DNA of 64,000 bases from Burkholderia sp. L27(2015) (lineage in GTDB: Bacteria; Pseudomonadota; Gammaproteobacteria; Burkholderiales; Burkholderiaceae): positions 1,364,404 through 1,428,403 of the forward strand of contig NZ_LMUX01000021.1 of NCBI RefSeq assembly GCF_009765705.1. Reading direction: 5' to 3'. A model generated the notes under the pieces. That model saw only the letters and a program-made list of their open reading frames with translations, searched no databases and was not told the origin of the DNA. The translations under genes and the position numbers were made by a program. Below are positions 10,639 through 40,267 of this stretch, in pieces. Numbering within the stretch: position 1 is the first letter of the stretch; every line of letters starts with the position of its first letter.

Positions 10639-10661
10639 CCGAATCACGAGCGCGTCCTGCG

Positions 10662-14309: not shown

Positions 14310-14314
14310 CTTGA

Positions 14315-22040: not shown

Positions 22041-22180
22041 ATGGCGGTTTCCTTCACGTCCGTAATACTCTTGTGCTTGAGCGGATAACGATTCCGAATC
22101 GATTCTGGTTACTCTGCTCGTCGGCGGAAATTGGCGTATCGTGAGTTTTGTTCAACACGACCGCCATCGAGCACAACGCC

Positions 22181-23509: not shown

Positions 23510-23789
23510 CCTCGGAGCGTAACGGCTAGGCATGAAGCGGACGGGCCCGGGTGTCGCATCGCGGGCTCGGTAGCTGCTGCTCGAACGCGCGCATTGCGCA
23601 TGGAACCGCACGTTAGGCACGGAACCGAACGCCTTATATAAAAATCGCCTTAGCATTCCTGAAACAATCCGTTCCCTTCTCTTGCGACGATCGTTAGTCT
23701 TCCAATGAGTTATTTCTCTCGCTGACTACCTGTGGGCATAGTCACAGGTAAAGCTCGGCGCGCCCCAAAATAAATCGTTGGAGTTACAT

Positions 23790-24779
23790 ATGTCGAAGCA
23801 AAGAGCGCCGCGCGCGTTGGGCGGCTGGATCCGTGCATTGCTTGCAGTGAGCGCGGTCATGCTGTTGGGCACCGCAACGTCGTCGGCCTTGGCCGACGTG
23901 AACACCCACGAGATTCGCATCGGCTACCAAAAAGCTGCGAGCGATTTGGTGCTGTTGAAGGCGCACGGTACCCTGGAGAAGCGCCTGAGTGCGCAAGGCG
24001 TTACGGTCAAGTGGATCGAATTTCCGGCCGGCCCGCAACTGCTGGAAGGTCTGAATGTCGGTTCGATCGATTTCGGCTACGTGGGCGAGGCGCCCCCCGT
24101 GTTCGCTCTGGCCGGCGGCACCGATTTCGTCTATACGGCTTATGAAGTTCCGACCCCGCAAGCCGAAGGCATACTTGTCCCGCAGGATTCGCCCATCCAT
24201 ACGATCGCCGACCTCAAGGGCAAGAAAATTGCCTTCAACAAGGGCTCCGACGTGAACTGGTTGGTAGTCAGCGTGCTCAAGAAAGCCGGCCTTAACTATA
24301 CCGACATCCAACCCATTTACCTGGCGCCGGCCGACGCACGTGCCGCATTCCAGAAGGGCGCGGTCGACGCATGGGCCATCTGGGATCCGTTCCAGGCTGC
24401 GGCGCAGCAGCAAACGGGAGCCCGGCAACTGGCCAACGGCGTTGGCGTGGTGAACCACTATCAATATTTTCTGACGGCCCGCGCCTACGCACAAAAGCAA
24501 CCCGAGGTGCTTAAGACTGTCATCGCCGAGGTCGGGCGCGAAGGTCAGGACATCCGCGCCGACTACAAGAAAGCCGCGGCCGAGCTTGCACCGATTCAAG
24601 GGCTCTCGCCGGACATCATCGAAACGAGCCTGCAACACTATGCACACGTTTTCAAACCGATCGACGCGACCGCGCTCAACGATCAGCAGAAAATTGCCGA
24701 TGCGTTTTACGATCTCAAGCTGATTCCGACGAAACTGAATGTGCATGACGCCGTGTTGAACAAGGTCGGAGTACAGTAA
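23790..24779 (+). CDS. ssuA: Aliphatic sulfonate ABC transporter substrate-binding protein SsuA
   Basis: 329 residues; ATG 23790 has GGAG six bases upstream. Signal peptide (residues about 1-34, [20 protein letters not shown]), then the SsuA/TauA-type fold with [40 protein letters not shown] and [20 protein letters not shown]. It captures sulfonates in the periplasm. The stop overlaps the ssuD start (TAATG). Confidence 0.94.
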
Positions 24780-25951
24780 TGAATGTCTTTTGGTTTATCC
24801 CCACGCATGGCGACAGCCGCTATCTGGGTACAGCGCAAGGCGGCCGCCGGGTCAGCTACGACTACTTGAAGCAAGTGGCAGTGGCGGCCGATACTTTGGG
24901 GTACGACGGTGTGCTGCTACCGACCGGGCGCTCGTGCGAAGACGCATGGGTTACGGCGTCCAGCTTGATCGGCGTCACCCAGCGGCTCAAGTTTCTGGTC
25001 GCCGTGCGTCCGGGGCTCACGGCACCGAGTCTTGCGGCCCGCATGGCTGCAACGTTCGACCGGTTGTCCGGTGGCCGTTTGTTGGTCAATGTGGTCACAG
25101 GCGGCGATCCTGTCGAATTGGATGGCGATGGGCTGTTCGAAACGCACACCGAGCGTTATGAAATTACCGACGAATTCCTTCGAATTTGGCGCGGTGTGCT
25201 GGCGGCATCGCACGATAGCGAAGACCTCAGCTTTACGGGCGATCACCTCACGGTGAAAGGCGCCAAAGTGCTCTACCCGCCTGTGCAGAAGCCGTATCCG
25301 CCGCTTTACTTCGGTGGTTCGTCGCCGGCTGCCCATGATCTGGCGGCTGAGCAGGTCGACGTCTATCTCACCTGGGGCGAGCCGCCTGCGGCGGTCGCGG
25401 AAAAAATTGCGGACATGCGGCGCCGTGCCGCCGAACGCGGACGCACCCTGCGCTTCGGGATCCGCTTGCATGTGATCGTGCGCGAAACCGAGCCCCTTGC
25501 ATGGCAAGCCGCCGACGATTTGCTCAGCAAACTCGATGTCGACACGATCAAGGCCGCGCAAACCAAATTCGCCAAGATGGATTCGGAAGGGCAACGCCGC
25601 ATGAGTGCGCTGCATGGCGGGGACACGTCGAAGTCTCGGGCCAAGCTTGAGGTCAGTCCCAATCTGTGGGCCGGCGTTGGTCTGGTGCGCGGCGGTGCGG
25701 GTACCGCGCTGGTCGGCGATGGTGCGACAGTGGCGGCTCGCATGAAGGAATACGCCGACCTCGGTATCGACACGTTCATCCTCTCCGGTTATCCGCATCT
25801 GGAAGAGTCGTATCGGGTGGCCGAGCTGGTGTTTCCGCATTTGCCGCGGCCTCAGCAGGAAAGCTTGCCGGGCTTTTCGCTGTCCGGCCCCTTTGGGGAA
25901 ATCGTGGCCAATCACATCGTCCCTTCGGCTGCGGCCGCGTCGGCCGGCTGA
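24779..25951 (+). CDS. ssuD: FMNH2-dependent alkanesulfonate monooxygenase SsuD
   Basis: 390 residues, luciferase-like. It releases sulfite from alkanesulfonates using FMNH2 and O2, giving an aldehyde. Conserved blocks: [40 protein letters not shown] (Cys near residue 54 of the active site), [20 protein letters not shown] and [20 protein letters not shown] with the active-site Arg. One-base overlap with ssuA and four bases before ssuC. The flavin reductase SsuE is not adjacent; the reductase at 38701 is a possible supplier, unproven. Confidence 0.95.
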
Positions 25952-25954
25952 ACC

Positions 25955-26743
25955 ATGGCGTCCGCACTCTCTACACGCATCAATTGGCTTAGACGGATAT
26001 TCCCGTGGATACCGACGTTGGTGCTCATCGCGGTTTGGCAGTTGGCATCCAGTCGCGGCTGGATGTCGAACCGGATTCTTCCGGCCCCGCTCGGGGTCGC
26101 CAAGGCGTTCTGGACGCTGACGCTTTCGGGGGATATTTGGGCGAACGTCAAGGTCAGTTCATTGCGCGCCTTGGCGGGTTTCGTCATCGGCGGTGGTCTG
26201 GGTTTGGGCTTCGGCTTGCTGACCGGTTCGTTCAAGACCATGGAAACGCTGTTCGACACCACGCTGCAGATGGTGCGCAACATTCCGCCGCTCGCCTTGA
26301 TCCCGCTCGTCATTCTCTGGTTCGGCATCGACGAGAGCGCCAAGGTGTTCCTGGTGTCGGTCGGCGTATTTTTCCCTTTGTACTTGAACACGTTTCACGG
26401 CATACGCTCCGTCGATCGAGGGCTGCTGGAAATGGCGCGCAGCTATGGGCTCTCGGGCTGGCCGCTATACCGCGACGTGATACTGCCCGGTGCTTTGCCG
26501 TCGATCCTGGTGGGCGTGCGTTTCTCGTTGGGATTGATGTGGGTGATTCTGATTGTGGCCGAGACCATCTCCGCGCAGTCCGGGATAGGCTACATGACGA
26601 TGAATGCGCGCGAGTTCTTGCAGACCGATGTCATGCTGGTCGGCATTTTGCTGTACGCCGTGCTGGGCAAGTTGGCGGACCTGTTGGCGAATGGCCTGTC
26701 GCGGTACTGGCTGCGCTGGCACCCCAGTTACCAGGCTAACTAA
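25955..26743 (+). CDS. ssuC: Aliphatic sulfonate ABC transporter permease SsuC
   Basis: 262 residues, six membrane helices, with EMARSYGLSGWPLYRDVILP as the EAA loop and VRNIPPLALIPLVILWFGID typical of the SsuC/TauC permeases. It forms the inner-membrane channel with SsuB. It lies three bases after ssuD and touches ssuB (stop then ATG). Confidence 0.94.
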   Translation: MASALSTRINWLRRIFPWIPTLVLIAVWQLASSRGWMSNRILPAPLGVAKAFWTLTLSGDIWANVKVSSLRALAGFVIGGGLGLGFGLLTGSFKTMETLFDTTLQMVRNIPPLALIPLVILWFGIDESAKVFLVSVGVFFPLYLNTFHGIRSVDRGLLEMARSYGLSGWPLYRDVILPGALPSILVGVRFSLGLMWVILIVAETISAQSGIGYMTMNAREFLQTDVMLVGILLYAVLGKLADLLANGLSRYWLRWHPSYQAN

Positions 26744-27655
26744 ATGAAACAGCAGGGGATGATCATGCAACACGCTGGTCTGGAACGTGACGTTGTCTCG
26801 GCGACGGTTCGACGCGCATCGCTTGTCGAGCAGCCGCGGCAATCGGGCATTGCGGTGCAACTGCGCGGGGTCGGCAAGGCATACGGTGAGAAAACCATCC
26901 TGAACGCAATCGACTTGACGATTCCGCCGGGCGAGTTGGTTGCGATCGTCGGGCGCAGCGGGAGTGGCAAAAGCACCTTGCTTCGTCTGCTGGCCGGATT
27001 GGATAAGGTAAGCGGCGGGACTGTCGCTTATGACGGGGTTTCGAGCGCCGCTTCTGATAAGGGCATCCGAGAGGATGTGCGCGTGATGTTTCAGGACTCG
27101 CGTTTACTGCCCTGGAAAAAGGTGCTGGCCAATGTCGCGTTGGGCTTGCCCAGGAGTCGGCATCAGGAGGCGCGCGGCGTGCTGGAGCAGGTTGGTCTCG
27201 CCGATCGTGCCGACGATTGGCCCGCCCATTTGTCGGGAGGACAACGACAACGTGTGGCGCTGGCGCGCGCGCTCGTGCATAAGCCCCGGCTGCTGCTGCT
27301 CGACGAACCCTTGGGCGCGTTGGACGCCCTGACGCGGATCGAAATGCACGCGCTGATTGAGCGCATATGGCGTGCCAATGGCTTTACGGCGCTGCTGGTC
27401 ACGCACGACCCTGCCGAGGCCATCGCGCTTGCCGATCGCGTATTGCTGGTCGAGGACGGTGCGATAGCCATGGATTTGCGGGTGGATTTACCGCGACCGC
27501 GTGCATTGGGTTCGGCTGCGTTCGCGGCGCTTCAAGATCGTTTGTTGCGACGTCTGCTTCAATCCGACCCTGCGGCCCCTGTCGCAGAACCCGCTCAAGA
27601 TCTGGGCGATATTTCGCTGCAACGCACGGTAAGCGAGGTTCGATGGGCGATTTAG
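26744..27655 (+). CDS. ssuB: Aliphatic sulfonate ABC transporter ATP-binding protein SsuB
   Basis: 303 residues. Walker [21 protein letters not shown] at about 70-80, [20 protein letters not shown], Walker [24 protein letters not shown] 26765 with AGGGG upstream is an alternative start. It ends with a C-terminal tail of about 50 residues longer than most SsuB proteins. It is the last gene of the ssuADCB unit. Confidence 0.93.
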
Positions 27656-27818
27656 AGGATCCTGACAGTTCACGGCGCCGGATCGCGCAGGGCCGTGTGC
27701 TGGGAGGCAGAGCTCTATTTTCCGTATCGATCTATCGATAGCGGATTTTCTTCGTTGCCTGGCAATTCGTACGTGGCTACCGTTAACGATTCCGCAATCG
27801 GGCAGGGCAGTACAGCGT

Positions 27819-28760
27819 ATGAACCAATCAACCGTTTTGACCAGGCCGGACCTGGATTCGGGCCTCTCCTCAGTTAAGCAGGCGTCGGTAAACGCATCGG
27901 ACGCATCGAACACACTAGAGATCCGCGCGTTCGACGCGCCGCTAGGCGCCGAGGTGCTGGGGCTGGATTTGTCGCGCCCGCTCTCCGATAGCGATTTCGC
28001 GCAGCTGCATCGCGCTCACCTCGACCACCACGTGCTGGTGTTCCGGGATCAACGCATCACGCCCGAACAGCAAGTGACGTTCAGCCGCCGCTTCGGCCCG
28101 CTCCAGATCCACGTGCTCAGGCAATTCCAACTTGCCGGCCATCCGGAGGTTCTGGTCGTGTCGAACATCAAGGAAAATGGGCAGCCGCTGGGCTTGGGCG
28201 ATGCAGGGCATTTCTGGCATTCGGACCTTTCATACAAGGAAACGCCGAGCTTGGGGTCGCTGCTGCACGCGCAGGAACTGCCGTCCGAAGGCGGCGACAC
28301 GTTGTTCTCCAACATGCATCTGCTGTGGGATACCTTGCCCGCAGAGTTGCGTCGCGCAGTCGTTGGCCGCCGCGCCGAGCACACCTACCTGGCGAAATAT
28401 GCGGAACTGCAGCGGCGCAGCCCGTGGCGGCCGAACCTGACCGCCGAGCAAGTCGCCGAAGTCAAGCCGGTGATCCACCCGGTGATACGCACTCATCCGG
28501 AGACAGGCCGCAAAGCGCTGTTCGTCAGCGAGCACTTCACCACGCGCATCCTCGACATCCCCGAAGACGAAAGCCGTGCGCTGCTCGATGCACTGTTCGA
28601 ACACGTTGCCCGGCCGGCCAACATCTATCGCCATGTCTGGCGCGAGCACGACATGGTGTTCTGGGACAACCGTTCGGTGCAGCATCTGGCTAGCGGTTGC
28701 CCGGACCATTTGCGCCGCAAGCTCTTTCGCACGACCATCGAAGGCGACGTGCCGTTCTAA
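27819..28760 (+). CDS. TauD/TfdA-family 2-oxoglutarate-dependent dioxygenase
   Basis: 313 residues. Iron ligands His134 and Asp136 (GHFWHSDLSYKETPS) and the distal His at about 289 (WDNRSVQHLASG), plus the 2-oxoglutarate Arg in RRKLFRTTIEG. Related enzymes hydroxylate taurine, sulfate esters or phenoxyacids, releasing sulfite or the acid. It follows ssuB after 163 nt on the same strand, so the block has two independent desulfonation chemistries. An N-terminal tail of about 30 residues precedes the fold. Confidence 0.92.
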   Translation: MNQSTVLTRPDLDSGLSSVKQASVNASDASNTLEIRAFDAPLGAEVLGLDLSRPLSDSDFAQLHRAHLDHHVLVFRDQRITPEQQVTFSRRFGPLQIHVLRQFQLAGHPEVLVVSNIKENGQPLGLGDAGHFWHSDLSYKETPSLGSLLHAQELPSEGGDTLFSNMHLLWDTLPAELRRAVVGRRAEHTYLAKYAELQRRSPWRPNLTAEQVAEVKPVIHPVIRTHPETGRKALFVSEHFTTRILDIPEDESRALLDALFEHVARPANIYRHVWREHDMVFWDNRSVQHLASGCPDHLRRKLFRTTIEGDVPF

Positions 28761-28844: not shown

Positions 28845-29519
28845 TCAGCTTGGGAGTTGATCGAGGTAACGAATAATCAGCCCGGCCGCATGTTCAAAGG
28901 TCGGGCTGTAGTTGATTCGCTGAATACTGTTGAATTGCGTGATGAAGTTGTCGCTCGGTGAGCGCAGATGTTCCAAAAATGCGTCAAGGTGCCGACGCAT
29001 AAATGGAATCGCATCAATCAAGGCATCTGGTTCGCGTTCAATGACCATTGCCAGATCAAACACGTCCCGGGCCGTCGCGATGGCTCCGCGGTGATACATC
29101 TTCTTGGCAACGATCTCAGCTGCTGTTTCGACGCGAACCTCGCGGCCGCATAGTTCCCATAGCTCATAGGCCCTGTCACCAGACAGCAGGTTTGGCGATG
29201 CCACGAAGTCGATCTCCCCTTCCTCGAGGATGAGCTTTACGAAATTGGCAGCTTCGATATATTGCGAGTTACATATCTCCTCGGCGACGGCACTAAGGCG
29301 CGGGCTCACGTAGTTCAGGCTTTGCGGATCTGGAACGAAGATATCGATGTCTTTGCTGAACCGATGCTGATAGCGAAGCATCAGTACCGTTCCCCCGCCG
29401 AAAGTAAAGAACGGGTTGGCGACGCCGCCGTGCTTTGATATTTCGTCAGTCAGCGCGAGCGCATGGGGAAGTAATTGTTGCCACAGCCCCGGCACCGGAT
29501 CTATTTTCTTCAAACCCAA
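28845..29519 (-). CDS. AbiEii/AbiGii-type nucleotidyltransferase toxin
   Basis: 224 residues from TTG 29519, which has GGAGG five bases upstream; an ATG at 29573 lacks a ribosome site. The DUF1814-like nucleotidyltransferase core shows FGGGTVLMLRYQHRFSKDID (GGG at about 41-43, Asp58 and Asp60 as metal ligands). Toxins of this type transfer nucleotides to tRNA or other acceptors and cause abortive infection or growth arrest. The start lies inside the 3' end of the XRE antitoxin gene, so translation is coupled. It converges with the TauD-type gene. Confidence 0.85.
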   Translation of the reverse strand: MGLKKIDPVPGLWQQLLPHALALTDEISKHGGVANPFFTFGGGTVLMLRYQHRFSKDIDIFVPDPQSLNYVSPRLSAVAEEICNSQYIEAANFVKLILEEGEIDFVASPNLLSGDRAYELWELCGREVRVETAAEIVAKKMYHRGAIATARDVFDLAMVIEREPDALIDAIPFMRRHLDAFLEHLRSPSDNFITQFNSIQRINYSPTFEHAAGLIIRYLDQLPS

Positions 29520-30001
29520 AACGTCCTCCGGCTGTCTGAATGGGTTTTTGCGAGCATGGCGACATTGCGCCATATATCGGTCGGTGCCTTGTGCTCTAGC
29601 GCCGCAACTTCTTCGACAGCCATGATGACCAAGCTGACCGGCGCCTCGTCCAGCAGGTGCCCAATATGTGCCTCATACCCGCTCGGCGCGTATCCTGTTG
29701 CTAAGGCCTGTTCCAGCATGCCCTCGGTCAATTCACCGGCGTAGCTGACGCTGGACGTTTTTGCTGCCATCCATAGTCCACGTTTGCGCTGTCTTGCCGC
29801 AAGCGACAGAGTATCGAAGCTGAGCCCCAAGACGTCCAGCAGCCTCGCGACTCGCTCGAATCCTAAGTCTTTTAGCGAGCCGGTTTCAAGGCTTTGGACC
29901 GTTTGGCGCGATAGATTGGCGAGCCGGGCAAGGCGTACTTGAGTGAGGCCGAGCGCTTCCCGGCGCTCGTGCACGTGCTTGCCCAAAGTCAAGATGTTCA
30001 T
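29510..30001 (-). CDS. XRE-family antitoxin of the AbiEii-type toxin
   Basis: 163 residues. ATG 30001 has AAGGAGG at eight bases; upstream in-frame starts would run through the operator. An N-terminal XRE helix-turn-helix (about 5-60, LGLTQVRLARLANLSRQTVQ) and a C-terminal region (about 80-163) with LTEGMLEQALATGYAPSGYE. It should bind the inverted repeat at 30042-30064 and neutralise the downstream toxin. Its gene overlaps the toxin by ten bases with the TTG start. The pair differs from classical abiEi by having an XRE rather than a winged-helix antitoxin. Confidence 0.88.
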   Translation of the reverse strand: MNILTLGKHVHERREALGLTQVRLARLANLSRQTVQSLETGSLKDLGFERVARLLDVLGLSFDTLSLAARQRKRGLWMAAKTSSVSYAGELTEGMLEQALATGYAPSGYEAHIGHLLDEAPVSLVIMAVEEVAALEHKAPTDIWRNVAMLAKTHSDSRRTFWV

Positions 30002-30032
30002 CAGATCGGCCTCCTTTGCGCCAGTATAGCCC

Positions 30033-30064
30033 ATGAGAATGCCTAAAATATTAGACATTTTAGG
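30033..30064 (-). promoter_or_regulatory. Promoter and operator of the toxin-antitoxin operon
   Basis: Perfect 8-bp inverted repeat CCTAAAAT (30042-30049) / ATTTTAGG (30057-30064) with a 7-nt spacer. On the minus strand a -10 TATACT lies at 30038-30033, so the repeat covers the -35 zone. It is placed for autorepression by the XRE protein starting at 30001. Confidence 0.7.
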
Positions 30065-30098
30065 GCAACCATGAAGGTAACGCCCAGGCAGAGAATCG

Positions 30099-30734
30099 CT
30101 ATCCAGCGATCACCAGTGCCGATCCTGTAGCCACGAGGGTTCCACACCACAACCATTCGAAGTTGATCCAGCCGTGCCGAAGAACGCCTAGCCCGAGTAC
30201 TTCATAGGCCAGGAGCGCGGCCAAAGCTGTCGTCGCAGTGCAGACTGCCGTATGTATTGTGACAAACGATATGATGAACAGTAGCGTGGTGTTACTGCCA
30301 ACTGCGGTGGTGCATATGGGTAGCAAGGCTGGCACGAGCATCAAGCCTGCTCCATGCATCGTCGCCATTCCCGCTGACCACAACGTAAGTCCGAAAAACC
30401 CGACGGTCATGCCGACTCGCACACGATGACGGTGCCCATATTTCAGGTGATAGATGGCCCAGGCAATCATGACTGCGCCGAGAATCTCGTGAATTCGCAT
30501 TCTCGGCTCCCAAACGTTCAGAGCTGCAGCCGACGAGGCGATGAGAAGAATGGAGGCCGCATGTCCAATAGCAAGAGGCGGTAAAGCAGCAAACAGAAAA
30601 GTTCGGCTGCCTCGTTGCATAGCTAATGCAGTAGCGAACAACCAGCCCATGGCTGGATTGATCCCGTGAAAGATTCCACTCGCGACGATCACCGTCCATG
30701 TCATCGGGGAGTTGGCATCAAGCAGCGTATGCAT
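30099..30734 (-). CDS. Polytopic membrane protein of unknown function
   Basis: 211 residues with about six hydrophobic segments (about 10-35, 45-70, 80-95, 105-140, 145-175, 185-210). A conserved-looking N-terminal motif, IFHGINPAMGWLFATALAMQ, places a His next to the first helix; another His (GHAAS) lies in the second, and MHGAG in the fourth. Such His-containing helices recall metal permeases, but I do not recognise the family. It follows the methanethiol oxidase gene on the same strand with a 15-nt gap, so they are probably one operon. Confidence 0.75.
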   Translation of the reverse strand: MHTLLDANSPMTWTVIVASGIFHGINPAMGWLFATALAMQRGSRTFLFAALPPLAIGHAASILLIASSAAALNVWEPRMRIHEILGAVMIAWAIYHLKYGHRHRVRVGMTVGFFGLTLWSAGMATMHGAGLMLVPALLPICTTAVGSNTTLLFIISFVTIHTAVCTATTALAALLAYEVLGLGVLRHGWINFEWLWCGTLVATGSALVIAG

Positions 30735-30749
30735 GCTGTGTAGGCCGGC

Positions 30750-32144
30750 TTAAGGGTAGCAATACGAGTCGGAGGAGCAATCGCCGCCCTCAAGACGAAT
30801 CTGATGCGGCCGATGCGTTTGCGGCCATTCGACGAAGAAGCGCTCGTCGAATGCCAGTCCGCCGTCGGGGCCCGCATCGAGCTTTACCATCCATCCATTG
30901 ATACCGTCCGGATAGAACTGTTCATCGATTGCGCCATAGAGTGAGTTGGTGAAATAAACGCGCTTGCCGTCGCGACTGACTTCCACCATTTGCGGGCCGC
31001 CGTTCAGGCTACGGTCACCCGCTTGCGGATGCGCCGCGCGAGCGGCGATGCCGCCGATCCGTACACAGCCCGTGAGTTTGGGAGTGTTCGGGTCCGACAC
31101 ATCGTATTGCCGTAGATCACCTGTTCCCCAGCAAGCCACGTAGAGAAAACGGTCATCCAACGATAACGCGATATCGGTCACGAGCGGTGGCACGACACCA
31201 AACCCCTTGAGCAAGGGAGGTAACAAGTCGGGGTCGGTCGGCTCCGCCGGAATCTCGATGATTTTTCGCGCTGCCCACGCGTCGCCGTCGCGGTACCACA
31301 TCCAGATCGACGAGGACAGGTCGTTGAGATTGATGACCGAATTGACGAAGCCGTAAGCCCGGGTGGGATTGTGCGCAGGCCGCAATTCAAAGACCAGTTG
31401 GTTTTCACTGCCGAAATCGAGGACTTGTTTATGCCGGCGCGTATGCAGATCCCAGAAGTGAAGCCTGTGGCCATACTTTCCGCCCAGCAGTACCTCCGGG
31501 ACTAAACCATTCTCGAACGTTGCCGGCAGCCCCCACTCGCTTGTCACCATGGCGTCGTAGCCGAGGTGCCACCACCCATCGTAAGCCAGCTCTTGCGGGC
31601 CGCGTTCGATTTCCCATTGACCGAGGATGTCGAACGTCTCGGGGTTCATCAGGAAAATGCCTCCAGGCGCCTCCCCGTCCGCGTTCGCGAGGGCAACGAC
31701 GTAGATGCCTTCAGGGCCGCAATGAATGGTGTGTGGACGCGTATAGCCGGCTCTATCGGCAACTTCCTTGGGCTCGAGTACGCGCACGATGCTGGGCCGG
31801 CGCGGGTCGGGCTTGGTGTCGAGTATATGAATACGTGACGAACGTAAGCCGGGCACGACGAGGTAACGTCTTTCCATATGAGCATGCGGTGCATTTGGAC
31901 AAAGACACGAACTGCATGCATTCCAGCCGAAGTGATGCAGTTCGTCACCGACGTTTGGCATTGCGATTCGGTTGACGATACTTCCGTACCCGGGCGATGC
32001 AGGATCTAGATCGATAACATCGATGGAATCAGGGACTTGTCGCGATGGATCGAAACTCGCGACATAGGCCAGCGTCTCTTTGGCGGCGCTGCCCGCCATA
32101 CGGGCGGAGGGATAGAACGTGGGATCAGGTTTCCAGGTGGACAT
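30750..32144 (-). CDS. Selenium-binding protein 56 family / methanethiol oxidase (MtoX-like)
   Basis: 464 residues, full length for SBP56. These beta-propeller copper enzymes oxidise methanethiol to formaldehyde, hydrogen sulfide and hydrogen peroxide. Seen: DELHHFGWNACSSCLC at about 67-82 (His-His and the Cys cluster), RPHTIHCGPEGIYV at about 135 and the C-terminal HQIRLEGGDCSSDSYCYP. No signal peptide is evident. ATG 32144 has GGAG upstream. It lies near the sulfonate genes, suggesting a shared organosulfur theme. Confidence 0.93.
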   Translation of the reverse strand: MSTWKPDPTFYPSARMAGSAAKETLAYVASFDPSRQVPDSIDVIDLDPASPGYGSIVNRIAMPNVGDELHHFGWNACSSCLCPNAPHAHMERRYLVVPGLRSSRIHILDTKPDPRRPSIVRVLEPKEVADRAGYTRPHTIHCGPEGIYVVALANADGEAPGGIFLMNPETFDILGQWEIERGPQELAYDGWWHLGYDAMVTSEWGLPATFENGLVPEVLLGGKYGHRLHFWDLHTRRHKQVLDFGSENQLVFELRPAHNPTRAYGFVNSVINLNDLSSSIWMWYRDGDAWAARKIIEIPAEPTDPDLLPPLLKGFGVVPPLVTDIALSLDDRFLYVACWGTGDLRQYDVSDPNTPKLTGCVRIGGIAARAAHPQAGDRSLNGGPQMVEVSRDGKRVYFTNSLYGAIDEQFYPDGINGWMVKLDAGPDGGLAFDERFFVEWPQTHRPHQIRLEGGDCSSDSYCYP

Positions 32145-32503
32145 GGATCTTTCTCCAGTTTGCTGGTGATTCTTCTACCCAAGAGGAAGCGGGTGTAGCT
32201 ATCTTAGAGTCGCGTTCGCATGCCTGCAATGATCTTCTTTCCCTGGGCCATACACGGGGTCACTTCTTCGGCCCATGTCTCGACCGAACTGGCGCCACAC
32301 AGTTAACCTGACCCCTTTGCATATGTAAAGACTATGCATTGAATGGGAAAACAATGCTTCCACCTTTAATTTGACTTGTTAAATTGCCGTGATGGAAGGC
32401 TAGTTAGCAGGTGCAAAACATAAGAGTCGGCATTCGAAAGTCGGGTCTACTTAGCGTAGGTGGGTAGTGATATGACATTTTCTTTTCGTGCGGGAGCTTC
32501 GCC
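32145..32503. other. Intergenic region between the SBP56 gene and the ABC/monooxygenase operon
   Basis: 359 bases between divergent genes. A dyad AATTTGACTTGTTAAATT is at 32368-32385 (listed separately). GGGGTCA and TGACCCC occur in opposite orientation about 60 bases apart (near 32250 and 32310), too weak to call insertion-sequence ends. No gene is visible. Confidence 0.4.
32368..32385 (+). promoter_or_regulatory. Candidate operator dyad upstream of the NtaA-like operon
   Basis: Imperfect palindrome AATTTGACTTGTTAAATT with AATTT/AAATT arms, about 120 bases before the first gene. TTGACT within it could also be a -35 element, but no good -10 follows. The regulator is unknown. Confidence 0.35.
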
Positions 32504-33613
32504 ATGTATGGACTGGTGAGTGTAGCCGACGGGGCACAGTCTCTGCCTGCTCAGGTATTGACGCTCAAAATGCGCACCGAGGGGCTATCGAAAAATTACG
32601 GTAGCACGGTGGCTCTGCATCCGATCGATCTTGAGGTAAAAGCCGGTGAACTCCTAACGCTGCTCGGGCCTTCCGGCTCGGGCAAGACCACGCTGCTGCA
32701 GATCATCTGTGGACTGGTTGAACCGACCACGGGCAAGCTGTTCATCGATTCGCAGGATCGCACCAAGGCCCTTGTGCATGAACGCGACATCGGTGTGGTG
32801 TTCCAGAACTACGCGCTCTTTGCGCATCTGAACGTCTACGAGAACATCGCATTTCCGCTGCAGATGCGGCGCCTCGCCGGCAGCGACATCAAGCGCCGCG
32901 TCATGCGCGCGCTGGAGATGGTGCGACTCGAGACGTTCGCCGAACGCTTTCCACGCGAGCTGTCAGGCGGCCAGCAGCAGCGGGTCGCGCTCGCGCGCTG
33001 CCTGGTGTACGAACCGTCACTGCTGTTGATGGACGAATCGCTGTCCGCACTCGATCGCAAGCTTCGTGAAGACATGCAGGTGGAAATCAAACGCATCCAT
33101 CGCGAAACGGGCACCACCATCATCTTCGTTACGCACGATCAGGAAGAAGCGCTCGCGCTCTCCGATCGCGTATGCCTGATGAACGCGGGACGTATAGAAC
33201 AGATCGGCACGCCCCAGGCTATCTACGAAACACCGCGCTCGTCCTTTGTCGCCGACTTCATCGGCGTCTCCAACAAATTGAGCGGCAAGCCAGGCCGCGA
33301 CGGCTGGCTCGTCACCGCCGACGGCAACGTCCCGCTGCCCGGTGATAGCGCATCACGCGCAGCGGCCAATGCACCGCAGGCGATGATCATCGTGCGCCCC
33401 GAACACATCCGCATCGACGAGGCCAATGAGGGCTACGTGCGCGGTCGGATCGTCGAAAGCATCTACGGCGGTTCGCAGACACGCTTGCTCGTGCAATTGC
33501 AAAGCGGTGCCGTTCTGACGGTCAGGCAAATGGCCGGGACCGGTTCCCGGTCGATCGGCGACGTCATCTCGCTGCGCTGGCAAGCGGAACACTCGCTTTT
33601 GCTCGATCACTAG
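32504..33613 (+). CDS. ABC transporter ATP-binding protein, PotA type (second system)
   Basis: 369 residues. GGGAG precedes the ATG. Walker A GPSGSGKTTLLQIICGLVEP at about 56, LSGGQQQRVALARCLVYEPS, Walker B LLLMDESLSALDRKLREDMQ (DES in place of the usual DEP), C-terminal TOBE domain. First gene of a tight operon that continues with binding protein, monooxygenase and fused permease, so the imported compound is likely the monooxygenase substrate. Confidence 0.94.
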   Translation: MYGLVSVADGAQSLPAQVLTLKMRTEGLSKNYGSTVALHPIDLEVKAGELLTLLGPSGSGKTTLLQIICGLVEPTTGKLFIDSQDRTKALVHERDIGVVFQNYALFAHLNVYENIAFPLQMRRLAGSDIKRRVMRALEMVRLETFAERFPRELSGGQQQRVALARCLVYEPSLLLMDESLSALDRKLREDMQVEIKRIHRETGTTIIFVTHDQEEALALSDRVCLMNAGRIEQIGTPQAIYETPRSSFVADFIGVSNKLSGKPGRDGWLVTADGNVPLPGDSASRAAANAPQAMIIVRPEHIRIDEANEGYVRGRIVESIYGGSQTRLLVQLQSGAVLTVRQMAGTGSRSIGDVISLRWQAEHSLLLDH

Positions 33614-33682
33614 GCATTGCGCCGAGCGTGCTTGCAGCAGTGGTACTTAACCAACGCAACATCCTGTAACCCCATCGGAGCA

Positions 33683-34759
33683 ATGAGAGTGAGCGCTATC
33701 ATCAAGACCAGTCGCAGGCAGTTCATCAAGACCACGGGCGCCGCCGGCTTGGCGCTCGGTTTCCCAACCATCTGGACGCAGCGCGCGAACGCGGCTGAAC
33801 CGCTGACGGTCGCGGACAACGGCGGCGCGCTCGGCCCCATCATGCGCACCGCGTTCTACGACCCGTTCGAGAAGGAAACGGGCATCAGCATCGTCAACGT
33901 CGCGCACGAGTCCGACCCGGTGACGCAATTCAAGCTATCGGTGGATTCAGGCTCGCACATCTGGGACCTGGCGATGGTAACGCCAGACAACGTGCTGCGT
34001 CTCACCGATCAGAAGAACTATCTCGCCCCGCTCGATATCGCTTCAAGCGACGGCAAGGGCATCCTCCCCGGCATGCTGACCAGCAACTGGTTTGGTTTTT
34101 CCATCTACGGCGTGGTGATGGCGTATCGCACGGACAAGTTTCCCAAGGTGGCACCCGCCAGTTGGCAAGACTACTGGGACCTCAACAAATTCCCGGGCCG
34201 CCGGGCCCTGTTTCGCCAGCCGATTGGTCTGCTCGAAAACGCGCTGCTCGCCGATGGCGTAGCACCGAAGGATATCTACCCGATCAACGTAGACCGCGCG
34301 CTGAAATCGCTCGACAAGGTCCATTCATCCATCAACGTCTGGTGGGCCAACGGCGCACAGAACACTCAACTGCTGCAAAGCGGCGAAGTCGACTTGTCGG
34401 ACACGTGGAACGCCCGCGCGCTCGCCGCAATCTCTGCGGGTGCGCCGGTCAAGATCGTCTGGGAAGGCACTTACAACGTAGACGGCTGGTCGATCCCGAT
34501 CGGCACGCCGCGCTTGAAGCAAGCCCAGCAGTTCGTGCGCTTTTGTATGCGGGCCGACCGCCAGGCCCAGTATTCGAGTCTGGTTGCAAATGGTCCGAGC
34601 AACAACGACGCGTACAAGCTGATCGATGCGAAGCGCGCCGAGTTGTTGCCCACCTACCCGAAGAATTTTGAACGTCTGACCCGCCGCGACACGGCGTGGT
34701 GGGGCAAAAACTTCGACTCGGTCAACGAGAGATTCCAGGAATGGCTGCTGAATACGTAA
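33683..34759 (+). CDS. ABC transporter substrate-binding protein, PotD type, with Tat signal
   Basis: 358 residues. The N-terminus SRRQFIKTTGAAGLALG is a twin-arginine signal, with cleavage likely after RANAA (about residue 38). The mature protein is a class II binding protein of the spermidine/putrescine group (LTVADNGGALGPIMRTAFYD). Tat export implies folding before export, perhaps around a metal or tightly bound ligand. A GTG at 33689 is an alternative start with better Shine-Dalgarno spacing. Gene order ATPase, binding protein, monooxygenase, permease is intermixed with catabolism. Confidence 0.92.
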   Translation: MRVSAIIKTSRRQFIKTTGAAGLALGFPTIWTQRANAAEPLTVADNGGALGPIMRTAFYDPFEKETGISIVNVAHESDPVTQFKLSVDSGSHIWDLAMVTPDNVLRLTDQKNYLAPLDIASSDGKGILPGMLTSNWFGFSIYGVVMAYRTDKFPKVAPASWQDYWDLNKFPGRRALFRQPIGLLENALLADGVAPKDIYPINVDRALKSLDKVHSSINVWWANGAQNTQLLQSGEVDLSDTWNARALAAISAGAPVKIVWEGTYNVDGWSIPIGTPRLKQAQQFVRFCMRADRQAQYSSLVANGPSNNDAYKLIDAKRAELLPTYPKNFERLTRRDTAWWGKNFDSVNERFQEWLLNT

Positions 34760-34809
34760 GCAACGCACGTAAGCAAACCCCCTGACTTACCCCAAGGAGA
34801 CTGCGCATC

Positions 34810-36150
34810 ATGGCTGACCAACACATGGCCCTCGGCGTGCTCGTGCATGCCACGGGCTCTCATCCGGCATCGTGGCTGCAATCGGAGGCACCCCGCGATG
34901 CGTCGACCAACATCGACTACTATCGCCGTCTCGCTACGCTCGCCGAAACGGGTCTGCTGGATTTGTTCTTCATCGCCGATACGCCCGCCGCGCGCACCGA
35001 GAAACTCAACGTCTACACGCGCTATCCGCTGTTCATGAATTGCTTCGAGCCGATCACGCTGCTCTCGGCGCTATCGGGATCGACGACGCACATCGGCTTG
35101 GGCGCGACGGCTTCGACGAGTTTCTACGAGCCGTATAATCTGGCGCGCCAGTTTGCGTCGCTCGATCACCTGTCGCACGGACGTGCCGGATGGAACGTGG
35201 TGACGTCCGCGAACGACTACGCGGCGAGAAACTTCGGGCTCGACAAGCTGCCGCCGCATGACCAGCGTTACGAACGGGCGAGGGAATTCTTCGACGTCGT
35301 ATCGAAGCTCTGGGATACCTGGGAGGACGACGCGTTTGTCGGCGACAAGGCGCAGTGTAAGGTCTTCGAGCCGGAGAAGTTCCACACCACGGATCACCAG
35401 GGCAAGTTCTTCACCGTATACGGCGGCCTCAACATCAAGCGCGCGCCGCAGGGCCGGCCTGTGATCATCCAGGCGGGATCGTCGGAAGACGGCAAGTCGT
35501 TCGCCGCCGAAACGGCCGAAGTGGTGTTCTCCTCCGACCCGACACTTGAGAAGTCGCAGCGCTTCTATGCCGATCTCAAGGGTCGCATGCCTGCGTTTGG
35601 GCGCGCGCCGGAGGAAATGAAGGTCCTGGCGGGATTGTCGGTCATGGTGGGCAGCAGCGAGGCCGAAGCGCAAGACAAGTATCGCGAGTTGCAGAGCCTG
35701 ATACACCCGGACGTCGGCCGCATGCGTCTTGGCGCGGACCTGGAACTCGACCTCACGAACTTCCCGCTCGACGAACCGATCCCCGAGCACATGATTCCGC
35801 AGAAGGCCAACCTGCATCAGGCCTACTTCAACCAGATCGCGACCATGATCCGCGAACAGAAGCTGACGCTGCGGCAGCTTTACTCAAGCTATGAACGCGG
35901 CAAGGTGACCTTGTGCGGCACGCCCGAGCAGATCGTGGATCATATGGAGGAATGGATCGACACCCGGGCCGCGGACGGTTTCATGCTGGCCTTTCATGTG
36001 CTGCCGAACGATATGACCGACTTCGTCAAACTCGTCATTCCCGAATTGCAGCGGCGGGGGCGTTTTCGCAAGGAGTACAGCGGCCAGACACTGCGCGAGA
36101 ATCTCGGCCTGGCGAGGCCGACGAACCGTCACGCCCGGGATTCGCGATGA
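34810..36150 (+). CDS. FMNH2-dependent monooxygenase, NtaA/EmoA/SnaA family
   Basis: 446 residues of the nitrilotriacetate/EDTA monooxygenase group. AAGGAG lies upstream. N-terminal ALGVLVHATGSHPASWLQSE, LDHLSHGRAGWNVVTSANDY at about 118, VIIQAGSSEDGKSFAAETAE at about 218 and TLRENLGLARPTNRHARDSR at the end. Such enzymes cleave C-N bonds of aminopolycarboxylates to give glyoxylate, using FMNH2. A flavin reductase gene four genes downstream (38701) is the obvious partner, as NtaB/EmoB is for NtaA/EmoA. The stop overlaps the fused permease start. Confidence 0.92.
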   Translation: MADQHMALGVLVHATGSHPASWLQSEAPRDASTNIDYYRRLATLAETGLLDLFFIADTPAARTEKLNVYTRYPLFMNCFEPITLLSALSGSTTHIGLGATASTSFYEPYNLARQFASLDHLSHGRAGWNVVTSANDYAARNFGLDKLPPHDQRYERAREFFDVVSKLWDTWEDDAFVGDKAQCKVFEPEKFHTTDHQGKFFTVYGGLNIKRAPQGRPVIIQAGSSEDGKSFAAETAEVVFSSDPTLEKSQRFYADLKGRMPAFGRAPEEMKVLAGLSVMVGSSEAEAQDKYRELQSLIHPDVGRMRLGADLELDLTNFPLDEPIPEHMIPQKANLHQAYFNQIATMIREQKLTLRQLYSSYERGKVTLCGTPEQIVDHMEEWIDTRAADGFMLAFHVLPNDMTDFVKLVIPELQRRGRFRKEYSGQTLRENLGLARPTNRHARDSR

Positions 36151-37931
36151 ATGCATCGGTGGTGAGTACTGGCGAAACGCCATCGCGATCCCGCGGAATT
36201 ACGCTTGGGCCGCTTTGGCTGACGTTGCCGGGCGTGCTGTTCCTGCTCGCGTTTCTCGTCTATCCATCGCTCAGGCTGCTCTCGCTATCCGTGATTCAAA
36301 ACGGCACGGGCGCATTCTCCCTGTCGGCGTTCGCGCGGTTCTTCGGCCCCAGCGTCTATCGGCAGGTGCTACAAACCACCTTTTCGATTGCCCTGCAAAC
36401 CACGGGCTACTGTCTTGTGTTCGGCTATCCGCTCGCTTACTGGTTGTCCGGCCTGCCCAAACGCCGGCAACAAGCGGTAGCCCTGCTAGTGCTGCTGGCG
36501 TTCTGGACCAGCACGCTCGTCAAGAGTTTCGCGTGGCTCGTCCTGCTTGGACGCAACGGCTTCGTGGCGGACGTCATGCACGCCCTGGGCTTTTCCGGTG
36601 GCGACCGGCTGCTCTTCAATCGCCCAGTCGTGATCTTCGCGATCAGCCATACCCTGTTGCCCCTTGCCGTGGTAACGATGTTGCCGGTGATGAACCAGAT
36701 CGACCGGCGCATGTCGTTGGCCGCCGCCACGCTCGGCGGCGACCGCGCGCAGGTTTTCTGGCGGATCTTCTTCGTCTCGTCGATGCGTGGTGTTGCCGCA
36801 GCAGGCCTGCTGGTGTTTATCGGCGCGCTTGGCTTCTTTATCACGCCCACGCTACTCGGCAGCCCGCACGAGATGATGTTGGGGCAATTGATCATCGTCC
36901 AGATCAACGAATTGCAGAACTGGCAGCTGGGAAGTGCGCTGTCGGTGGTACTGGTGAGCACGGCGCTCGTGAGCTGCTTTATCTACAACTTGATCTTCGG
37001 CATGTCCTCGCTCGCCGACGATCGTCACGCAGTGCGTTCATCGCATCACCGTCATCTGCGGCGCTTCGGCAATCGAATCGTCAATGGTCTTGGCCTCGTG
37101 TTCTCGCATGTGCTCGGTGTCTACGATCGTCATGTGCGGCCAGTCACGCGTGTGAGCCCGCTCGCCGTGTATTCGTGCGCGGTGATTTTCGTGCTCCTCT
37201 TTCCCATCGTCGCGATCGTACCGATGGCGTTTACGGCTGACACCTTCCTTTCGTTCCCGCCCAAAGGCTTCAGCTTGCGCTGGTTCGAAGCCTACTTCGA
37301 ATCGCCGCTATGGATAGGCGCGACAGTGCGGTCGTTCGGCATCGGGCTGGTGACCGCACTCGTCACGACTGCAATCACGACGCTAGCAGCGCTCGGCATC
37401 GTACGCTCGAAGACACGCGCAACGGGCGCGCTCTTCTTGCTGTTTCTCCTGCCGATGATCATCCCGTCCATCATCACCGCAGTCGCCCTGTTCTTTCTGT
37501 GTGCGCACATCTCGCTCGTCGCGACCAACCTAGGCATCATCATCGGACACGTGTTGATCGCCATGCCCATTGTGTTCGTGATCCTACTCACGACGTTCAA
37601 AGGCCACGATTGGGCGCTCGATCATGCGGCCGGCACACTAGGCGCGAATCGCCTGCAAGTGCTGCGGCGCATTACTCTGCCGTCGATTAGGAACGGACTG
37701 GTCGCGGGGTTCGTGATCGGCTTCCTAACGTCGTTCGAGGAGTTGACGGTGGCATTGTTCATCGGCGGCGGCATCAAGACGACACTTCCCAAGCAACTCT
37801 GGGACGACATCCTGCTGCAGGTCAATCCAACCCTCGCGGCGGCGTCGACGGTCATGCTGGTCGTGGTCACCATACTGTTTCTCGTGCTTCAGCACGTGCA
37901 TCCGCGTGGCAAGAGCGCCGCGGCGGCATGA
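36147..37931 (+). CDS. Fused ABC transporter permease (PotB-PotC in one chain)
   Basis: 594 residues from ATG 36147, which overlaps the monooxygenase stop (ATGA). The N-terminal half (about 20-290) is a PotB-type permease with the EAA loop LAAATLGGDRAQVFWRIFFV; the C-terminal half (about 335-590) is PotC-type with LDHAAGTLGANRLQVLRRIT. A His/Arg-rich linker (RHAVRSSHHRHLRRFG) at about 290-310 joins them. One chain therefore replaces the usual heterodimer, as in FbpB/ThiP-type transporters. No frameshift or internal stop is present. Confidence 0.92.
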   Translation: MNASVVSTGETPSRSRGITLGPLWLTLPGVLFLLAFLVYPSLRLLSLSVIQNGTGAFSLSAFARFFGPSVYRQVLQTTFSIALQTTGYCLVFGYPLAYWLSGLPKRRQQAVALLVLLAFWTSTLVKSFAWLVLLGRNGFVADVMHALGFSGGDRLLFNRPVVIFAISHTLLPLAVVTMLPVMNQIDRRMSLAAATLGGDRAQVFWRIFFVSSMRGVAAAGLLVFIGALGFFITPTLLGSPHEMMLGQLIIVQINELQNWQLGSALSVVLVSTALVSCFIYNLIFGMSSLADDRHAVRSSHHRHLRRFGNRIVNGLGLVFSHVLGVYDRHVRPVTRVSPLAVYSCAVIFVLLFPIVAIVPMAFTADTFLSFPPKGFSLRWFEAYFESPLWIGATVRSFGIGLVTALVTTAITTLAALGIVRSKTRATGALFLLFLLPMIIPSIITAVALFFLCAHISLVATNLGIIIGHVLIAMPIVFVILLTTFKGHDWALDHAAGTLGANRLQVLRRITLPSIRNGLVAGFVIGFLTSFEELTVALFIGGGIKTTLPKQLWDDILLQVNPTLAAASTVMLVVVTILFLVLQHVHPRGKSAAAA

Positions 37932-37985
37932 CATTCCATGCACGGGAAGCCCTCCAATCACTTCAACGTAGAGAGTTTTTGTTAA

Positions 37986-38711
37986 ATGGATGAACATCAG
38001 CTTCGAATCGATCTCGCGGCCGCATTTCGCTGTTTTGCACGCCTGGGAATGCACGAGGCGGTCGCCAATCATTTCAGTGCGGCAGTGTCGGCCGATGGTC
38101 GAAAATTCCTGATGAATCGCAAGTGGCAGCACTTTTCGCAGATCAAGGCGAGTGACCTGCTGCTCCTCGATGCCGACGACGGCGAAGAGCTGGCCGGGCA
38201 CACCGACGTTGACCCCACCGCATGGGCGATTCACGGACAAATTCACCGGCGTGCACCGCACGTGAGGGTCGCGCTGCATCTGCATCCGGTCTATGCAACG
38301 GCCATTGCTTGTTTGAAGGATCCGCAGATCAAGCCGATCGAGCAGAATACCGCGCGCTACTTCAATCGGGTCGCGCTCGACACCGCGTTCGGTGGCATGG
38401 CGGATACCGCGGCCGAGGGCGCGCGTCTGGTCGAAGCGCTCGGCGACAAGTCGCGCCTGATGATGTGCAATCACGGTGTCCTGGTGACCGCATCGACCGT
38501 GGGCGAAGCGTTCGACGACATGTACACGCTTGAGCGCGCTTGCCAGATCCTCACGTTGGCCTATTCAACGGGACAGCCCTTGAATCTCCTCTCTACCGAA
38601 GTGGCCGAGAAGACGGCGCGCGACTGGGAAGGCATCGTGGATTTTTCGATGGCGCACTTCGAGGAGATGAAACGGATTCTCGATAAGGAAGAGCCTTCTT
38701 ATGCTGACTGA
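37986..38711 (+). CDS. Class II aldolase/adducin family protein
   Basis: 241 residues. Zinc-binding His pair in VALHLHPVYATA (about 97-99) and the third His in MCNHGVLVTA (about 162), as in L-fuculose phosphate aldolase and related enzymes. NHFSAAVSADGRKFLMNRKW at about 29-48 is the phosphate/substrate region in a divergent form. Members include sugar-phosphate aldolases, decarboxylases and dehydratases; many work on small hydroxyacids. It overlaps the flavin reductase gene by 11 nt. Its step in this pathway is unknown. Confidence 0.9.
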   Translation: MDEHQLRIDLAAAFRCFARLGMHEAVANHFSAAVSADGRKFLMNRKWQHFSQIKASDLLLLDADDGEELAGHTDVDPTAWAIHGQIHRRAPHVRVALHLHPVYATAIACLKDPQIKPIEQNTARYFNRVALDTAFGGMADTAAEGARLVEALGDKSRLMMCNHGVLVTASTVGEAFDDMYTLERACQILTLAYSTGQPLNLLSTEVAEKTARDWEGIVDFSMAHFEEMKRILDKEEPSYAD

Positions 38712-39207
38712 CATGAACACGAAGGAAGTATCGCTGGGCGCGTTTCGCGACGCGATGGCGCAATTGGGGGCGGCAGTCCACGTCGTCACGACGGATGGCG
38801 AAGGTGGCCGCGCGGGCTTCACGGCGTCGGCCGTCTGCAGCGTAACGGATACACCGCCCAGCGTTCTCGTTTGCATCAACAGGACTTCGTCCGCTTACGC
38901 CGCGATGAAGGCGAACGGTGTTCTCTGCATCAATACACTGAGCGCGGAGCAGCATGAGATATCGAGCGCCTTTTCTAGCAAGCAGCCGATGGCCGCACGC
39001 TTTGAGCACGGCGAATGGCTAGCGCGCAACGGTCGGCCGCCGCTTCTGGCTGGGGCGATCGTCTCGATCGATTGCAAGGTGGTCAGCCAGGTGCCGGTCG
39101 GGACGCACGACATTCTCGTTTGCGAAGTCAGCGAGATTCAGGCCAATACGCGCTCGGGAATTCTGATTTACTATGACCGCAAATATCACCGGATCATTCG
39201 GGACTGA
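38701..39207 (+). CDS. Flavin reductase, HpaC/NtaB/RutF family
   Basis: 168 residues with the FMN-binding domain pattern GAFRDAMAQLGAAVHVVTTD, GRAGFTASAVCSVTDTPPSV and VCEVSEIQANTRSGILIYYD. It reduces FMN or FAD with NAD(P)H and passes it to monooxygenases. Its place in the same operon as the NtaA-like enzyme argues that it is the partner. A second ATG (38713) is near; the first overlaps the aldolase gene and was chosen for coupling. Confidence 0.92.
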   Translation: MLTDMNTKEVSLGAFRDAMAQLGAAVHVVTTDGEGGRAGFTASAVCSVTDTPPSVLVCINRTSSAYAAMKANGVLCINTLSAEQHEISSAFSSKQPMAARFEHGEWLARNGRPPLLAGAIVSIDCKVVSQVPVGTHDILVCEVSEIQANTRSGILIYYDRKYHRIIRD

Positions 39208-39283
39208 GCGCACTTTGTACTCAAGCGCTCACTCATGTCACTCATGTCACTCAACCGATTTTGATCCAAAGAGTGCAAAGAAA

Positions 39284-40267
39284 ATGTCAAACCGGCCTTT
39301 GAGCATATATGTCGAGAACTACACGACTGACGAGCATCGCGCCATTGCCAAGGAACAAGTCGAAGCCTGCTTGCGCGACGTTGATGCGCCGCTGAACATT
39401 ACAATGGGTTGGCATGCGACGCCGGATGTGAAAGCCTTGGCGATCTCGGATTTTATCGTGGCGCCCCGTTTCAACACCGCGGCCATTTTGCAGCATGCGC
39501 GCAATCTGAAACTCGTTCATTGCATCAATGCCGGCGTCGAGCGCTACATGCCTCTGGATTGGTTGCCGGTGGGCGCCGTGCTCACGAATAGCCGTGGCAT
39601 TCATGCAGTGAAAGCGCGAGAGTATGCGTTGATGTCTCTGCTCATGCTCAATACGCGCATGCCAGTCTTGGCGGATGCAAAGCGTGCGCGCATATGGAAA
39701 CCCGAATTTACGACGCCAATTCTCGGCAAGACCGTGGTTGTCGTTGGCACCGGCGGCATCGGTGGCGCGATCGCGGGTGCTGCAAAGAGCTTGCAAATGC
39801 GCGTGATCGGGGTCAACAGGTCAGGAAACGAGCATAGCGATTTTGATGAAGTCGTCGCCCAAGAGCGTTTGGAGGAGGTATTGCCGTATGCCGATTTCGT
39901 CGCCCTTGCTTGCCCATTGACGATTGCGACGCGGAACCTCTTTTCTGAAGATCGGCTTGCTTTGCTCAAGCAGGGCGCTGGGATCCTGAATATGGCCAGA
40001 GGCGGCGTCATCGACACTGCCGCATTGATTCGGATGCTCGAGGAGAAGCGGCTGTCGGGCGCTGTCGCCGATGTGTTCGATCAGGAGCCGCTTCCCGAAT
40101 CTTCTCCTGTCTGGGACGCTCCACACCTCATCGTCACGCCACACATTTCCTGTGACTCTCCTGTGGGTTACGTCGACGCCGGGCTGGCTATATTCGGCTC
40201 AAACGTCAGGAGCTTGTTGGCGGGCCGTGAGGTCACAAACCGTGTGGATCCTGATCTGCAATATTAG
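39284..40267 (+). CDS. D-2-hydroxyacid dehydrogenase
   Basis: 327 residues from ATG 39284. NAD-binding motif GTGGIGGAIAGAAKSLQ at about 150, catalytic Arg in LNMARGGVIDTAALI, Glu in ADVFDQEPLPESSPVW and His in VTPHISCDSPVGY. The family interconverts 2-ketoacids and D-2-hydroxyacids (glyoxylate, hydroxypyruvate, pyruvate). Glyoxylate would be the product of NtaA-type cleavage, so reduction of glyoxylate to glycolate is a reasonable guess. A small direct repeat (CACTCATGT) precedes the gene. Confidence 0.92.
   Translation: MSNRPLSIYVENYTTDEHRAIAKEQVEACLRDVDAPLNITMGWHATPDVKALAISDFIVAPRFNTAAILQHARNLKLVHCINAGVERYMPLDWLPVGAVLTNSRGIHAVKAREYALMSLLMLNTRMPVLADAKRARIWKPEFTTPILGKTVVVVGTGGIGGAIAGAAKSLQMRVIGVNRSGNEHSDFDEVVAQERLEEVLPYADFVALACPLTIATRNLFSEDRLALLKQGAGILNMARGGVIDTAALIRMLEEKRLSGAVADVFDQEPLPESSPVWDAPHLIVTPHISCDSPVGYVDAGLAIFGSNVRSLLAGREVTNRVDPDLQY

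Follow-up and report, generated by a model that had tools for sequence, protein, structure and literature searches.

A seven-gene importer and monooxygenase operon of a Caballeronia-like Burkholderia as a likely feeder of imidazole-4-acetate catabolism

The operon described here occupies positions 32504-40267 of a 64,000-nucleotide stretch (the window) of contig NZ_LMUX01000021.1 from Burkholderia sp. L27(2015), whose 6.4-Mb genome is Caballeronia-like. It unites a polyamine-type importer, an NtaA-family monooxygenase dependent on flavin mononucleotide (FMN) with its reductase, a protein of the class II aldolase fold (ALD) and a 2-hydroxyacid dehydrogenase. On good comparative support, we consider it likely that this operon is linked to the imidazole-4-acetate pathway as an import and first-oxidation feeder, while each reaction named below, taken singly, is put forward tentatively, at somewhat less than even chances. 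What sequence comparison contributes to this proposal is the gene content, co-localisation in relatives, a second locus in the same genome, a common predicted operator and the absence of the catalytic glutamate of aldolases. A preliminary description of the DNA had seen a C-N cleavage operon in the frame of nitrilotriacetate (NTA) and ethylenediaminetetraacetate (EDTA) breakdown, and its reading contained no imidazole link.

One line of evidence came from partner genes. When neighbouring open reading frames (ORFs) were clustered, a LysR regulator, a monooxygenase using flavin adenine dinucleotide (FAD-monooxygenase, FMO) and proteins of the Rid, DUF1028 and M20 hydrolase families emerged as frequent neighbours, together with 2-hydroxyacid enzymes and either a Rieske oxygenase or HpaB. 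The layout FMO-RidA-DUF1028-M20 with a LysR gene has been published as hinFLHG with hinK (PMC8231116, PMC6467879). HinF is an FAD-monooxygenase (EC 1.14.13.5), HinL an enamine deaminase, HinH an amidase and HinG an enzyme of EC 3.5.1.8; they convert imidazole-4-acetate to aspartate, and HinK is the imidazole-4-acetate sensor (PMC8231116, PMC6467879). At locus L153, a hin-like module is accompanied by a class-III aminotransferase, an amino-acid permease and an aldehyde dehydrogenase, which is the make-up of hinDAC. By family and order, the hin pathway of Pseudomonas (hinDAC, hinFLHG, hinK) shares with our system the downstream module (FAD-monooxygenase, Rid protein, DUF1028 and M20 hydrolase) and the type of LysR regulator, located on another contig here and beside the operon in relatives. 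The upstream arm, in contrast, consists there of an aminotransferase, an aldehyde dehydrogenase and a permease, and here of a Pot-type ATP-binding cassette (ABC) importer, a luciferase-like monooxygenase (LLM), an aldolase-fold protein and a 2-hydroxyacid dehydrogenase.

The association follows the phylogeny of the monooxygenase. In a tree of 78 rows, 57 formed a clade (clade A, support 99) apart from the 21 others. Partners within 10 kb were scored at 54 loci with a clade-A monooxygenase (at least 53% identity) and at 22 more distant loci. Genes for imidazole-4-acetate (hin) or histidine (hut) breakdown were found near the monooxygenase at 26 of the 54 clade-A loci and at none of the 22 distant ones; with ALD included, the counts were 34/54 and 0/22 (Fisher 7.6e-8). 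Near relatives inflate these counts, and a tree-based label-change test gave 17 changes against a shuffled mean of 22.6, a value matched in 1-2 of 500 shuffles. The loci span alpha-, beta- and gammaproteobacteria and an actinobacterial metagenome-assembled genome (MAG). Copies of the monooxygenase adjoin hutH/hutU/hutI genes at L152, L035 and L036, and HutH, HutU and HutI of L152 score over curated cut-offs. Locus L152 (1968-18394) holds two tandem monooxygenases, a Rieske oxygenase and CoA-transferase-like and acyl-CoA dehydrogenase-like genes within a hut cluster (HutH, HutU, HutG, HutI, HutF).

These data bear on an alternative in which the operon degrades an unrelated nitrogen compound and was merely recruited under a HinK-like regulator, the hin neighbourhood being a catabolic island. 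In its favour, 28 of the 54 clade-A loci have no hin or hut genes nearby, and loci of Ancylobacter and some Acetobacteraceae carry other transporters. The association nevertheless recurs in many arrangements and in two phyla, the RidA-DUF1028 pair staying constant where the oxygenase next to it varies, and the hut genes at three loci also indicate imidazoles. We therefore judge simple recruitment unlikely.

Across whole genomes, DUF1028 proteins of the HinH type were present in 22 of 24 clade-A genomes tested, compared with 3 of 17 others (Fisher 1.9e-6). In C. sordidicola, C. mineralivorans, Gluconacetobacter and Ancylobacter (L191-L196; in L191 at 8080-14841), a pair of HpaB and flavin reductase genes occupies the place of the FMO beside RidA-DUF1028(-M20). 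This arrangement suggests that HpaB with a flavin reductase may act as a non-orthologous imidazole-acetate monooxygenase in these relatives. The idea of HinF as a strict requirement was dropped, since C. sordidicola and others have the HpaB and reductase pair in its place.

In the genome of the window, searches for FMO and for DUF1028 yielded one match each, both on the same contig (L140). One strand of this locus carries permeases, a binding protein and an ATPase, making up a second Pot importer, together with a Rieske oxygenase and a LysR gene; FMO, RidA and DUF1028 genes lie on the opposite strand. By family and order, LysR-FMO-RidA-DUF1028 would correspond to hinK-hinF-hinL-hinH. The nearest structure in the PDB to the Rieske protein is the carnitine monooxygenase CntA, and the Rieske and LysR proteins are 78% and 82% identical, respectively, to those of the second locus of C. 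sordidicola. A separate locus of this genome (L197; C21, 5984-14789) contains a HisJ-type ABC importer, an arginase-family protein, RidA and an M20 hydrolase. Of all matches to HinG-like proteins in this genome, this hydrolase is the best (54%), and its context looks guanidino-related.

An operator may connect the two loci. A position weight matrix (PWM) for a palindromic 19-mer was derived by Gibbs sampling from six loci other than the window, with their hinK/hinF promoter regions as the training set. Among 127,964 positions in the window, its best score fell in the operon promoter, 167 bp 5' of the first gene (Table 1). The promoters of Pot operons were also the top match of their locus in L011, L012 and L008, and near the top in L007 and L009. 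The core ATAG-N7-CTAT had its sole exact match per locus in the Pot-operon promoter in L007, L008/L105, L009 and L011. The own genome has 15 places with at most one mismatch to the box, and those located in promoters are three: the operon of the window, the Rieske operon, which was outside the training set, and hinK/hinF, which was within it. The other near-matches that were inspected lie inside genes or between genes of a single operon. The evidence from the box is one of placement, not of number, because total counts do not exceed those of a reversed-pattern control. A strict T-N11-A palindrome search gave nothing useful. We predict from these sites that the operon and the hinK/hinF promoter of the same genome share an operator to which HinK would bind.

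Several observations weigh against the feeder role. The operon contains no hin gene, and in its nearest relatives these genes are likewise elsewhere. The partner set is putatively equated with HinFLHG, on families, gene order and literature annotation. The second locus yielded no convincing HinG, the M20 homologue sitting in the arginase-family cluster. Co-occurrence with HinF over whole genomes is moderate (12/33 versus 1/17, p=0.038), the weaker association arising because HpaB with flavin reductase substitutes for FMO in some genomes. Ca. B. verschuerenii has the operon, and a genome-wide search there detected neither HinF nor DUF1028. Genome-wide box counts were 195 against 258 for the reversed pattern, and the two matches in the window at up to two mismatches equal the chance expectation. 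Finally, the dehydrogenase is not at the corresponding place in the closest relative, C. sordidicola, and for this reason its membership of the operon is the weakest of the seven.

The monooxygenase itself was compared with characterised enzymes. NtaA, EmoA, CmoJ and BdsA belong to a family whose chemistry is oxidative cleavage of C-N or C-S bonds. The nearest PDB entries were CmoJ/YtnJ (359 bits, about 42% identity) and a B. pseudomallei protein (3sdo, 357 bits) that is called NtaA by annotation only, with BdsA also among the nearest. The EDTA monooxygenase EmoA (5dqp) was a distant match at 246 bits, so the enzyme does not lie closest to EmoA/NtaA. This ranking is relevant to the view that the operon degrades synthetic aminopolycarboxylates (NTA, EDTA, ethylenediaminedisuccinate or iminodisuccinate) by NtaA-type N-dealkylation, with the dehydrogenase handling glyoxylate. 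Such a view draws on a score over the NtaA/DmoA cut-off, on the annotation of the B. pseudomallei protein, and on a layout of FMN monooxygenase, flavin reductase and ABC importer that chelator operons share. CmoJ, however, scores as high as that protein and EmoA far lower, the importer is of the Pot type unlike those of chelator operons, and the conserved partners are imidazole and histidine catabolic genes. In addition, the operon has a wide distribution among acetic acid bacteria and bacteria associated with plants, and its promoter carries the predicted HinK-type box. Breakdown of NTA or EDTA was rejected on the neighbour genes and the distance from EmoA, and we hold the whole chelator view to be very improbable. 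The preliminary description had itself noted that the cluster differs from known NTA/EDTA sets and had doubted a chelator substrate, rightly in our judgement. Its glyoxylate role for the dehydrogenase found no support; the substrate may be an N-substituted amino acid, one of the options that it named.

Salvage of organosulfur compounds (S-alkyl-cysteine, sulfones or methylated sulfur), as by CmoJ, BdsA and DmoA, was the other function considered for the monooxygenase. CmoJ and BdsA are among its nearest structures, and a sulfonate-utilisation cluster (22148-28760) lies 4 kb upstream. That cluster is nevertheless a separate unit, set apart by a block on the - strand (28845-32144), and its own NtaA-type enzyme is among the 21 rows outside clade A. 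Bacillus CmoJ/YtnJ provides the nearest solved structure, but cysteine-salvage partner genes are missing at this operon, and neither acetyltransferase nor sulfur genes were observed among the recurrent neighbours of this monooxygenase. An organosulfur function is, on these grounds, very unlikely.

The protein named a class II aldolase in the preliminary description belongs to that family and fold but lacks the catalytic glutamate of true class II aldolases. It falls into the PRK07490 group, which is rare (over cut-off in 8 of 200 family genomes and 36 of 399 phylum genomes). His98, His100 and His163, the metal triad, are invariant among aligned homologues. The position of the catalytic Glu73 of FucA (residue roles from PMC5216522) is Ala79 in ALD, Thr in 1 of 16 aligned homologues and never Glu, unlike in a FucA-type aldolase. 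A structure model of ALD with a predicted local distance difference test (pLDDT) score of 90.4 was nearest in the PDB to 3ocr, TqaM, NovR and pyruvic oxime dioxygenase (POD), and the Foldseek query template modelling (TM) scores were about 0.76-0.87 against TqaM, NovR and POD. According to the structure titles, these three are non-haem iron enzymes, TqaM having been solved with D-3-phenyllactate; for POD this is also described in the literature (PMC5216522, PMC11841055). They share with ALD the fold, the three-histidine metal site and the lack of a catalytic Glu at the FucA position, and differ in that their identity to ALD is just about 22-27%. Judged by the model, ALD is probably a non-haem Fe(II) oxygenase rather than an aldolase. 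For this one step, a true aldolase that splits a hydroxylated intermediate by a retro-aldol reaction is an unlikely alternative: the family name (PF00596) and the retained metal triad speak for it, whereas the residue at the Glu73 position and the Fe(II) oxygenases as nearest characterised folds speak against it. A pyruvic-oxime or nitrification function was also discarded, since the fold is common to POD but the sequence is closer to TqaM, NovR and 3ocr, and nitrification partners are lacking.

The gene content of the operon is given in Table 1.

Table 1. Features of the operon and its promoter, in window positions.
Feature	Position	Strand	Basis
Predicted HinK-type LysR box GCATATGTAAAGACTATGC	32319..32337	.	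Top PWM score; 1 mismatch to GCATAG-N7-CTATGC
PotA-like ATPase of the ABC importer, carrying a TOBE domain	32504..33613	+	PF00005, PF08402; best NCBIfam PRK09452 PotA
Tat-exported periplasmic binding protein, PotD/agropine-binding-like	33683..34759	+	PF13416; TIGR01409; PDB 4i1d, 6hly
FMN-dependent monooxygenase, NtaA/DmoA family (MO)	34810..36150	+	TIGR03860 537.2 bits, cut-off 279.7
Fused ABC permease, PotB-like and PotC-like halves in a single protein	36147..37931	+	
Class II aldolase-fold protein (ALD), PRK07490 group	37986..38711	+	NF005689 393.9 bits, cut-off 260; PF00596
Flavin reductase, RutF/HpaC type	38701..39207	+	PF01613; RutF 220.5 bits, below 254.75 cut-off
D-2-hydroxyacid dehydrogenase, probable last operon gene	39284..40267	+	PF02826 2e-48

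ORFs and family profile matches bore out the seven co-directional genes of the preliminary description and the families it had assigned, and with them the composition of the unit. The permease start codon and the monooxygenase stop codon overlap in the sequence ATGA, and the ALD and flavin reductase genes share 11 bp (38701-38711). For the dehydrogenase, ATG 39284 is a more probable start than 39173, and it therefore does not overlap the reductase gene. The order ATPase-binding protein-monooxygenase-permease-aldolase-flavin reductase is kept in Caballeronia, Cupriavidus, Pantoea and an Enterobacteriaceae MAG, and because of this conservation the block is not a chance assembly; order variants occur in Herbaspirillum, Pseudomonas, Salipiger and others. 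The nearest named locus, L007 of C. sordidicola, has a monooxygenase 94% identical to ours. The ATPase scored 357.6 bits against the PotA equivalog PRK09452 (cut-off 482) and the binding protein 45 bits against that of PotD (cut-off 582), so the importer would work as a Pot-type system without the status of a polyamine equivalog. The binding protein matched 4i1d (1e-54) and the agropine-binding protein 6hly (5e-46). Its twin-arginine translocation (Tat) signal, MRVSAIIKTSRRQFIK.., scored 24.6 bits with TIGR01409 (cut-off 16.7) and is read from ATG 33683, the most likely start on inspection of the ORF. The permease has 594 aa, with the PotB-like half at residues 32-280 and the PotC-like half at 342-584, and homologues in relatives are of ~600 aa.

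Upstream, the sulfonate cluster (+ strand) encodes a second NtaA/DmoA-family monooxygenase (22148-23509), an SsuA-like binding protein, an SsuB-like ATPase and a TauD dioxygenase, as well as SsuD and SsuC, both over cut-off. Between the two monooxygenase clusters, an AbiEii-type nucleotidyltransferase and an overlapping helix-turn-helix gene (28845-30058, - strand) likely form a type IV toxin-antitoxin pair. Divergent from the operon is a gene for an SBP56 family protein (30750-32144, - strand; 637 bits), which scored 98 bits against the methanethiol oxidase MtoX (cut-off 650) and is not MtoX by that test.

We propose that the operon is a HinK-regulated feeder of imidazole-4-acetate catabolism. 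Since the monooxygenase family cleaves C-N or C-S bonds, an N-substituted histidine would be the simplest imidazole substrate. The compound taken up by the Pot-type importer would be an imidazole derived from histidine, with imidazole-lactate and an N-substituted histidine as the likeliest candidates. The monooxygenase, with FMNH2 likely supplied by the RutF-like reductase, would cleave the C-N bond oxidatively to give histidine or imidazole-pyruvate, and the dehydrogenase would interconvert imidazole-lactate and imidazole-pyruvate. In homologous clusters the 2-hydroxyacid enzyme comes from different, unrelated families (PF02826, LldD-like or Ldh_2), and this variety fits a 2-hydroxyacid/2-oxoacid step of that kind. 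Imidazole-acetate corresponds to histidine that has lost its carboxyl group and been oxidised at the alpha carbon, so the two compounds would be joined by an oxidative decarboxylation of imidazole-pyruvate, which ALD, as an Fe(II) oxygenase, may catalyse. The other contig encodes, along with HinK, the putative HinF, HinL and HinH, which would carry imidazole-4-acetate onward to aspartate. The betaine hercynine as sole substrate is suggested by CntA/GbcA/Stc2-like Rieske and TauD/PhyH partners, but those oxygenases may instead stand in for HinF.

A search of the open-licence literature on the operon, on DUF1028 and on an imidazole-pyruvate route turned up no prior description, and reports in subscription journals are possible. 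In its full form, the proposal is a new route from N-substituted histidines or imidazole-lactate to imidazole-4-acetate, in which an LLM serves as N-dealkylase and an iron oxygenase of the aldolase fold decarboxylates imidazole-pyruvate oxidatively, the whole being controlled by HinK, with an HpaB-type two-component replacement of HinF in relatives; we offer this complete version as a possibility whose chances are about one in three. The 'nitrilotriacetate monooxygenase' annotations now carried by this clade should be treated with caution. The proposal predicts that two distant loci answer to a single inducer through a common operator. If it is true, widespread orphan genes would gain a biochemical function, namely this clade of the NtaA family, the PRK07490 'aldolases', the DUF1028 partners and orphan Pot importers, and imidazole-4-acetate would be a hub supplied from sources besides histamine.

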